This document shows, piece after piece, positions 27,867 through 30,423 of a DNA stretch of 47,812 nucleotides. Every line of letters starts with the position of its first letter. Positions within the stretch are counted from its first letter, which is position 1. Made by a program: the position numbers and the translations under genes. The stretch lies in contig PLWQ01000032.1 in NCBI GenBank assembly GCA_003165595.1, positions 1-47,812 on the forward strand, in the 5' to 3' direction. Under the pieces are notes generated by a model, which saw nothing but the letters and a program-made list of their open reading frames with translations, made no database searches and was not told the DNA's origin. The stretch is from Fibrobacterota bacterium. GTDB lineage: Bacteria; Fibrobacterota; Chitinivibrionia; Chitinivibrionales; FEN-1185.

Positions 27867-28802
27867 TCAGGCGGCGCCGTAGAACCGATCGCCCGCCACA
27901 ATCCGAACCGATACGCCGCCGCGCTTGACGAGAAGCGACAGCGCCGATGCGGTGTCGTTGATGGGACGGCCGGTGGTAACCGCAAGATCCTCCACGGTGC
28001 AGGGCCGGCGGCGGAGGGTGGCGAGGATGGTAGACGCCAGCGCCGAGTCTCCGACGGATGCCGCGGGCGCGGTATAGGCGCGCGAGATGATCTCAACGGG
28101 CGCGGGTCGCAGGAAGTTCGCAATGTCGAGCAGCTCGGCGGTCGTGGCCGGCCGGACCGAGGCGCTCGCGCCGGGCCTGTCCAGCGTATTGAGCTGCACG
28201 CGGCCCGGCGCTATCGACAGGATCGCGCCTTTGAGCAGCGCCAATTCGTTCAATGAGTCGTTGACGCCGGGCACGATAAACACCTCAAGCCACAGGCGGC
28301 CCTTGTACTCGCGGGCGAACTGCGCTATGCCGGCGATGATCGCGGCGCTATCGAGGCCGCGAAGAGGGCGATTTACTTTAGAAAATGTTTCATCCGATAC
28401 CGCGTCGAGCGAGGGCAGCACGCAGTCGAACAGGTGCGCCGCCCTGCGGACCTCCGGGAGGGAAAGCAGCGTGCCGTTGGTGAGCAGCGCGGTTGTATAC
28501 CCGGGGAAGGATTGCTTCACAAAAGAGACAACGGCGTCGATCCCGGTGTTGAGCGTGGGCTCGCCCGAGCCGGTTATCGTCACCACGTCGAGCTTCGGCG
28601 AGGTTGCGAGAAAATCCGAAAGCTCGGCGATAATGGCTAGCGGCGGCGCCCATTCCTTGCGTTCGGCCGAAAGGACCGTGGTTTTTCCGCATTCGCAATA
28701 CACGCAGTTGAGATTGCACACTTTTGCCGGAACGATGTCGACGCCGAGCGAGAGCCCCAGCCGGCGCGATGCAACGGGGCCGAAAAGATAGGTGTATGAC
28801 AT
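27867..28802 (-). CDS. Radical SAM protein (COG0731-like) with C-terminal winged helix
   Basis: 311 residues from ATG at 28,802; a GTG at 28,814 is also possible. The start YLFGPVASRRLGLSLGVDIVP and the CNLNCVYC cluster (Cys29, 33, 36) are the signature of a common radical SAM family related to TYW1/COG0731. ITGSGEPTLN binds SAM and GVNDS marks the later strand. Residues 240-311 form a small HTH domain (ALASTILATLRRRPCTVEDLAVTTGR). The substrate is unknown. It is transcribed away from the DUF1573 gene after a terminator. Confidence 0.85.
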   Translation of the reverse strand: MSYTYLFGPVASRRLGLSLGVDIVPAKVCNLNCVYCECGKTTVLSAERKEWAPPLAIIAELSDFLATSPKLDVVTITGSGEPTLNTGIDAVVSFVKQSFPGYTTALLTNGTLLSLPEVRRAAHLFDCVLPSLDAVSDETFSKVNRPLRGLDSAAIIAGIAQFAREYKGRLWLEVFIVPGVNDSLNELALLKGAILSIAPGRVQLNTLDRPGASASVRPATTAELLDIANFLRPAPVEIISRAYTAPAASVGDSALASTILATLRRRPCTVEDLAVTTGRPINDTASALSLLVKRGGVSVRIVAGDRFYGAA

Positions 28803-28817
28803 AGGGTTCCGCACAAA

Positions 28818-28846
28818 AGAAACGGGCCCTGGAATTCAAGGCCCGG
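28818..28846 (-). terminator. Terminator of the DUF1573 gene
   Basis: On the minus strand CGGGCC and GGCCCG (plus positions 40-45 and 23-28 of the 28,800 block) form a stem around a 10-base loop, followed by TTTCTTTT. It ends the transcript of the gene finishing at 28,873 and overlaps the leader of the radical SAM gene. Confidence 0.6.
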
Positions 28847-28872: not shown

Positions 28873-29631
28873 TTACTTCTTTGTTTCGGCGCTCACGTCG
28901 ATAAATCCGTTTGCCTTGAGTTCCGGCATGTCCGGATGGTTGGAGACAATGGTGAATTCGCCGAACCTGTTTTCCTTTATGTCAACAATATCTTCCGAGA
29001 GCTTGAGCTTGTAGTCCCACGAACCGTCGGCCGTGGGTTTGTCCGGCTTTGTCAATGTGAACATCAGGTGGTCGGGCAACGACGACAACCATGCCGCCTG
29101 ATTGGGGCCGGTTCCCTGTGAAGACTTGAAGGTCGCTTCCTTCACCACGAGATCGGGCTTGTCGGTGGAGAGCGTAATCTCCACTTCGAACTTGCCGCTC
29201 TTGCTCCGCCTCATCTGGATATAGTCCGGGTTCGCCGCGAGCGGCACCTTGAGCGTCATCTTGACGCACAAATGCAGGTCGGGCTTGTTCCTGGCGTTTG
29301 AGCTGACCGTGACGCATTTACTGAACGTTCCGCCGTGCGCCTTGGCGAGATTCACTTCCGGTGTAATGGAACCTTCCCGACCGGGAAGGATGGTGGTATC
29401 GAAACCCACCACGGTGCATCCTCAGCCAGGCCTCACGTCTCTGATGACCAGCACGCTGTCGCCGGTATTCTTCACCTTGAATACGTACTTGGCCGACGCC
29501 TTCGTACCCTGCTTTATGGTGCCCAGGTTGACTTCTTCGGAATCAACCGAGATCATAGGGCCGGTCTTGCAGGCAGCGGGTACAACGAGCAGCATTGCCA
29601 TCACAAAGAGTGTCGCGAGCGTTTTCTTCAT
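28873..29631 (-). CDS. DUF1573 exported protein, candidate selenoprotein (in-frame UGA at 29,424-29,422)
   Basis: 252 codons read through one in-frame TGA. ATG at 29,631 follows AAGGAG. A signal peptide with a lipoprotein-like end (VPAAC, Cys21) precedes a DUF1573 domain: NLGTIKQGTKASAKYVFKV, NTGDSVLVIRDVRPG, then TGA, then GCTVVGF, ILPGREGSI and GGTFSKCVTVSSNA. Family members normally read RP.CGCT here; TGA replaces the first Cys, giving U70-G71-C72. No frame change occurs, and similarity continues on both sides. A SECIS-like hairpin follows the TGA. Residues 120-252 are a further beta-rich domain. Protein function is unknown; the U-G-C pair suggests redox chemistry or metal binding. A point-mutated pseudogene is the main alternative. 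Confidence 0.8.
29372..29411 (-). promoter_or_regulatory. Candidate bacterial SECIS element downstream of the in-frame UGA
   Basis: Counting from the base after TGA: bases 11-16 (TGGTGG) pair with 26-31 (CCACCA), leaving a 9-base loop that begins GT at 17-18. Bacterial SECIS elements have a loop 16-37 bases after UGA with a G in its first two positions, so this fits. A second hairpin at 33-50, CCTTCCC-GGTC-GGGAAGG, has the same GGUC loop as E. coli fdhF, but its loop at +40 is slightly too far. Part of it is dictated by the family's PG..G codons. Confidence 0.6.
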
Positions 29632-29847: not shown

Positions 29848-30423
29848 CTACCGTAGCAAGTCGAGATAGGCGGCCATGGGAATCTCGTATGCCATCACGT
29901 ACTCGATCCTCCTTCGGGACAGATCGTAAATCTCCATGACCGGGCGCGGATCGATTTTCCTTTCACTTGCGTATTTCATCATCCTCGGATAGACCTTGAC
30001 CACGCCGATAAGTATCGACAGCGGCCCTTTATACGGAAATTCAGCGTACACCGCTTTTGCCGGCGGCAGGTGTGCAGTCTTGTATCCTCTCGTCTTGAGT
30101 GAGTCGGCCCTGGATTCGTCCTGCGAATCCACCATGCAGCCGCCCAGGCTGCGGAGCTTTTCCTGCGGCGCTTCGCGAGGATTGTCGTAGTAGAGCCCGA
30201 AGCCGCGGGGTGATGCAATTTTCCCTTTTGTGAGGAGGGTCAGGTACGTCGAATCTATAACGGACCGGATTTTCCCGTAATCGCCGATGTGCTTGGCATA
30301 TACGATGGTGGCGCGCGGCATGGTTCTTTCGGAAACCGTCACGGTGGAAAACGCGCCGAAATTCCATAGCGCGGCAAGGCCGAGGGCAAGGCTTGCGCCA
30401 AGGACAATGAGGACGGTTCTCAT
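29848..30423 (-). CDS. Membrane-anchored GyrI-like (SOUL/BacAv-type) domain protein
   Basis: 191 residues; ATG after GGAGGCAGC. One N-terminal hydrophobic anchor (VLIVLGASLALGLAALWNFGAF) is followed by a GyrI-like small-molecule-binding domain: ATIVYAKHIGDYGKIRSVIDSTYLTL, GLYYDNPREAP, LPPAKAVYAEFPYKGPLSILIGVVKVYP and VMEIYDLSRRRIEYVMAYEIPM. In AraC regulators this domain binds ligands; here there is no DNA-binding part and the protein faces the periplasm. Its ligand is unknown. Confidence 0.75.
   Translation of the reverse strand: MRTVLIVLGASLALGLAALWNFGAFSTVTVSERTMPRATIVYAKHIGDYGKIRSVIDSTYLTLLTKGKIASPRGFGLYYDNPREAPQEKLRSLGGCMVDSQDESRADSLKTRGYKTAHLPPAKAVYAEFPYKGPLSILIGVVKVYPRMMKYASERKIDPRPVMEIYDLSRRRIEYVMAYEIPMAAYLDLLR

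Follow-up and report, generated by a model that had tools for sequence, protein, structure and literature searches.

Which structure does SelB read when a selenocysteine (Sec) codon is followed by two adjacent RNA hairpins? The question is raised by a 47,812-nucleotide (nt) stretch of a Fibrobacterota bacterium (assembly GCA_003165595.1, contig PLWQ01000032.1; the whole stretch is referred to here as the window). On its minus strand, at 28873..29631, lies a predicted selenoprotein gene of the DUF1573 (HYDIN-like Ig) family, encoding 252 residues between an ATG at 29631 and a TAA at 28873, and its sole in-frame UGA (29422..29424; residue 70, VRPG[U]GCTVV) is directly followed by a proximal hairpin (P) and a distal hairpin (D). 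When the gene is compared with its homologues in two phyla, we consider it probable that the two hairpins make up a composite bacterial Sec insertion sequence (SECIS), with D bound by SelB and P folding the spacer in front of it.

Numbering from the first base after the UGA as +1 (+n = 29422-n, minus strand), P spans +10..+32 (29390..29412) and D spans +33..+50 (29372..29389). The core of P consists of 6 base pairs (bp) between +11-16 and +26-31, where UGGUGG pairs perfectly with CCACCA around a 9-nt loop (+17-25) that opens with GU at +17; a G10-U32 pair can extend the stem to 7 bp, and the energies are -8.6 and -10.0 kcal/mol. D, the candidate SelB-binding stem-loop, pairs CCUUCCC (+33-39) with GGGAAGG (+44-50) over 7 bp (-11.2 kcal/mol), and its apical GGUC tetraloop lies at +40..+43 (29379..29382, minus strand). 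The first three bases of this loop are the Gly codon of an invariant PG motif, GG plus U as third base, and the C opens the Arg or Gln codon that follows. Both hairpins are present in the minimum free energy (MFE) fold, in which the end of P at +32 abuts the start of D at +33. A preliminary description of this DNA had placed a 6-bp stem at 11-16/26-31, with its GU loop inside the known window for bacterial SECIS elements, and a second hairpin of 7 bp with a GGUC tetraloop at +33 to +50; both were exact in position and fold, and the spacing of the first is 16 nt.

That description also took the hairpins as independent support for Sec insertion. This does not hold for the single sequence, where hairpins of the P type (at least 6 bp, satisfying the position and G rules) follow 188 of the window's 1272 UGA triplets (15%), so that inspection of one sequence gives no independent support without homologues; once homologues are added, the claim stands. 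Hairpins of the D type, with at least 7 bp and a GGUC loop, follow 2 of the 1272 triplets, and a tandem pair of hairpins follows 52. Compared with dinucleotide shuffles, the 65-nt fold did not stand out (z -1.21) and was not taken as support, and an Rfam search of the region returned a single match at chance level (E 4.7), on the opposite strand. The convincing evidence for the hairpins is comparative.

The homologue set drew on relatives, on a DNA-pattern scan across 84,980 species, on 194 genomes belonging to a single order of Desulfobacterota and on 297 genomes from that phylum. When these sequences are folded from +10, P and D both form in 183 of 187 Sec genes (Fibrobacterota and Desulfobacterota) compared with 7 of 49 homologues that have cysteine (Cys) at the Sec site, a contrast in which related sequences are not independent and the Fisher value is consequently inflated, which weighs against taking it at face value. 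The structure is found with UGA and nearly absent with Cys, as is asked of a bacterial SECIS, and the outcome named beforehand as fatal to a link with the in-frame UGA, namely stems that are not conserved with TGA or are equally present with Cys, was not observed. The GGUC of the D loop is present in all 14 Fibrobacterota Sec genes and in none of 31 Cys homologues, and the Cys genes all carry A or G at position 43. The loss of both hairpins is seen in three Cys genes nested inside the Fibrobacterota Sec clade (L028, L031 and L032); their Sec sister L029 retains them. A further Cys-coding gene, L152, is nested in the same clade; all four are apparently Sec-to-Cys changes.

A permutation in which codons were swapped among synonymous sites within each gene, keeping the protein and the codon set fixed, showed the P and D regions of Sec genes to be more stable than their permuted versions, with mean z values of -2.41 (P) and -1.59 (D) for the Fibrobacterota Sec genes (n=14) and of -2.19 (P) and -1.82 (D) for those of Desulfobacterota (n=137). 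Values for the Cys homologues (n=33 and 18) and for two downstream control regions were near zero. For the window gene alone the signal is moderate only, with ranks of 0.12 (P) and 0.03 (D). Together, these comparisons indicate that P and D are genuine Sec-linked RNA structures.

Covariation in relatives, a check that had been proposed for the stem, leads to the same helices. Mutual information was computed over all column pairs from +1 to +87; in the Desulfobacterota Sec genes the top-ranking pair is 14-27, formed in 97%, and two further pairs of the P helix, 15-26 and 17-24, rank alongside it, whilst the strongest in Fibrobacterota is 39-44, the pair that closes the D loop, which is formed in 100% of genes as C-G or U-A. 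When compensatory changes were counted on trees from which the hairpin region had been excluded, 15-26 (11 branches), 14-27 (10) and 39-44 (3, none breaking) were in the lead, against background means of 0.29 and 0.03. Where relatives have C15-G27, the window has G15-C27, both bases being third positions of their codons. Both hairpins appear to have been preserved by compensatory evolution across two phyla.

The two helices differ in what is conserved at their tips. A G occupies the first two loop positions of D in 176 of 183 Sec genes but those of P in 12 of 183, and the D loop is found at +40 or +43 in every Sec gene scored. P varies in geometry by lineage: it lies at 10/11-31/32 in Fibrobacterota, at 13-28 in many Desulfobacterota and at 14-31 where a gene carries a 3-nt insertion; among these genes, two unrelated sequences, the CCUCU...AGAGG and CUUUGGC...GCCAAAG versions occupy the same place. 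D is thus the better candidate for recognition by SelB because its GG(U/C) loop is conserved and the loop of P is not, while P is conserved as a helix and probably serves as a spacer. The preliminary description, which favoured P as the SECIS over a "slightly distal" hairpin, had the order reversed; what it observed is confirmed, and its interpretation is supported in part.

Neither hairpin fits the published model when considered alone. In the bacterial SECIS (bSECIS) model of Zhang and Gladyshev, in the form given by PMC13188914, the loop has 3-9 nt with a G in its first two positions, the stem has 4-16 bp, the MFE is at or below -7.5 kcal/mol and the apical loop lies 16-37 nt from the UGA. 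The window D agrees with this in loop (4 nt), stem (7 bp), MFE and loop G, but breaks the spacing rule with 39 nt; P agrees in loop (9 nt), stem (6-7 bp), MFE and spacing (16 nt), but the G in its loop is not conserved in relatives. With D failing on spacing and P on loop-G conservation, neither by itself can be filed as a canonical bSECIS, and the two-hairpin layout lies outside the published consensus spacing rule. We found no mention of two hairpins in DUF1573 genes in the literature searched, which did not extend to the primary papers on the Olavius Delta1 selenoproteome and on bSECISearch.

Comparison with formate dehydrogenase suggests how the distance might be made up. The SECIS of E. 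coli fdhF is a 17-nt upper stem-loop situated 11 nt after the UGA, with a GGUC loop (PMC8659212, PMC13188914), and spans +12..+28 with GGUC at +19 in the numbering of PMC8659212. Like it, the window D belongs to a hairpin element that directly follows the Sec UGA within the coding region and has a 7-bp stem and a GGUC loop; it differs in having its loop at +40, where fdhF has it at +19, in the additional conserved hairpin that occupies the stretch before it, and in the absence of a 5'-side bulged U from D of the Fibrobacterota genes. In related genomes, formate dehydrogenase genes carry just one hairpin, whose loop reads GGUC at +19 or GGC at +24. The D loop lies 16-21 nt beyond this position, and P takes up 16-23 nt of the interval. 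If the 21-nt P core (11-31) of the window gene is subtracted, D falls at +12..+29 with its GGUC at +19, matching the E. coli fdhF layout.

We lean, by a modest degree, towards a SECIS class whose conserved spacer hairpin folds away about 16-23 nt and so brings a GG(U/C) SelB loop at +40 or +43 to working distance. In this mechanism, with the UGA in the A site, the GG(U/C) loop of D would be presented to domain 4 of SelB, through which SelB is tethered to the SECIS (PMC5311926), and SelB would deliver Sec-tRNA-Sec. P would start near +10 to +14, about the mRNA entry point of the ribosome, and its folding would remove 16-23 nt from the path, such that the D loop would act as though at about +17 to +25. 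The invariant PG motif would fix D at +40 (or +43), its Gly codon giving the GG of the loop and its Pro codon the cytosines of the stem, and the folded interval would let the domain-4-tethered SelB reach the A site. We infer SelB binding to D, the spacer role of P and Sec insertion itself.

Several observations weigh against this mechanism. Genes with the 3-nt insertion move P downstream without enlarging it relative to the +40 set; a longer P in these genes was considered and is not supported, as the means are 18.2 nt and 18.5 nt (whole +40 set) and P is shifted by 3 nt instead. Spacing corrected for P is not constant, with means of 21.5 for +40 loops and 24.8 for +43 loops. The 39 nt of D is barely past the published range, and D might work without P. 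The window genome gave no match above cut-off for formate dehydrogenase (Fdh-alpha), for which reason SECIS spacing was compared in the formate dehydrogenase genes of relatives.

Two other arrangements of the same hairpins can be weighed against these data. In the first, P is the SECIS recognized by SelB and D merely assists, by pausing or stabilizing; the canonical spacing of P, its agreement in the window with every published feature of the model (loop of 9 nt, GU, -8.6 to -10.0 kcal/mol) and the location of the strongest Desulfobacterota covariation within it speak for this. We nevertheless find it unlikely, as the geometry of P changes from lineage to lineage and the GG(U/C) loop of the relatives' formate dehydrogenase SECIS matches D. 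In the second, P and D form one extended SelB platform, stacked coaxially and separated by 0-4 nt, with P touching SelB or the ribosome and no distance being shortened. The two hairpins abut in the window, and the gap from the end of P to the GG loop is mostly 8-12 nt, and 12 in all 16 genes with a +43 loop; however, P varies freely in sequence and loop, which speaks against sequence-specific contacts, and we regard this arrangement as improbable too. The composite of a SelB-bound D and a spacer-folding P remains our preferred reading.

The gene itself provides evidence that the UGA is decoded as Sec. A signal segment is predicted at the N-terminus of the protein, and residues 27-118 match Pfam DUF1573 (PF07610) at 3e-19 (69.3 bits, cut-off 26.1), a match that spans the UGA. 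On sequence comparison, the UGA occupies the site of the first Cys in the PG[C]GCT of paralogues and relatives; the window protein thus has the UGC motif and its homologues have Cys at the Sec site, a combination expected of a DUF1573 selenoprotein. Two Cys-type DUF1573 paralogues lie side by side in the same genome (L019 and L020 on contig C41), reading VRPGCGCTVV, and are placed outside the Sec clade in the tree. Directly past the TAA, at 28823..28845 on the minus strand, is an intrinsic-terminator-like hairpin with a T-rich tail, identified by consensus match only, as would be expected if the gene ends at 28873 rather than at the UGA. The window UGA very probably encodes Sec, and insertion of Sec there is predicted. 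That the hairpins instead reflect protein or codon constraint or some other mRNA structure unrelated to Sec, with the UGA a stop or a mutation, has in its favour how often a lone proximal hairpin arises by chance, but is extremely improbable and already contradicted by the data, in that synonymous permutation shows excess stability only in Sec genes, the frame runs 183 codons beyond the UGA, which lies inside a conserved domain, and UGA recurs at the same codon in two phyla.

The genome is equipped for such decoding: selA, selD, selB with its winged-helix domain and a tRNA-Sec with anticodon UCA are all present, and the organism has the Sec-decoding set (selA, selB, selD, tRNA-Sec(UCA)). The SelD and FlpD homologues in this genome contain no UGA. 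Around the selenoprotein gene, also on the minus strand, a radical SAM protein of uncertain subfamily is encoded directly downstream at 27867-28814, with the terminator-like hairpin between the two, and a protein with a GyrI-like small-molecule-binding domain is encoded upstream at 29848-30423.

The DUF1573 selenoprotein family is itself already known, having been catalogued as OS_HP2 with its UGC motif in two reviews (PMC9312934, PMC13188914). The window protein has this motif at the same position but is a divergent member from a Fibrobacterota lineage, scoring 69 bits against NCBIfam NF041425 (OS_HP2_seleno), under the curated cut-off of 100, which a Desulfobacterota member (P0002) exceeds at 140.4 bits. 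Its named relatives belong to the Chitinispirillaceae and Chitinivibrionales (Fibrobacterota) and to Desulfobacterota. A DUF1573 homologue is present in 175 of the 194 sampled genomes of the Desulfobacterota order, most of those listed having one UGA, and the family looks far more widely spread than a single catalogue entry implies. Most of the DUF1573 homologues L086-L267 and L298-L367 have one in-frame UGA, often with several such genes per genome; three distant matches (L299, L300 and L318) have two in-frame TGA codons each, the second being either another Sec or a normal stop. A scan of viral contigs with the DUF1573-Sec pattern gave no match.

The usual picture of a bacterial SECIS is a single hairpin within a bounded distance of the UGA, a rule that gene finders apply. 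If a spacer hairpin brings a distant SelB loop into reach, the rule would concern folded distance and not nucleotide count, and searches limited to 16-37 nt would overlook such elements or put them in the wrong place; for the window gene, the 16-37 rule picks P, whose loop is not conserved. The element would also be a SECIS fitted to a fixed protein motif, taking its loop from the invariant Pro-Gly. The family offers many natural variants, including Sec-to-Cys reversions without either hairpin, which make the question of distance directly testable.
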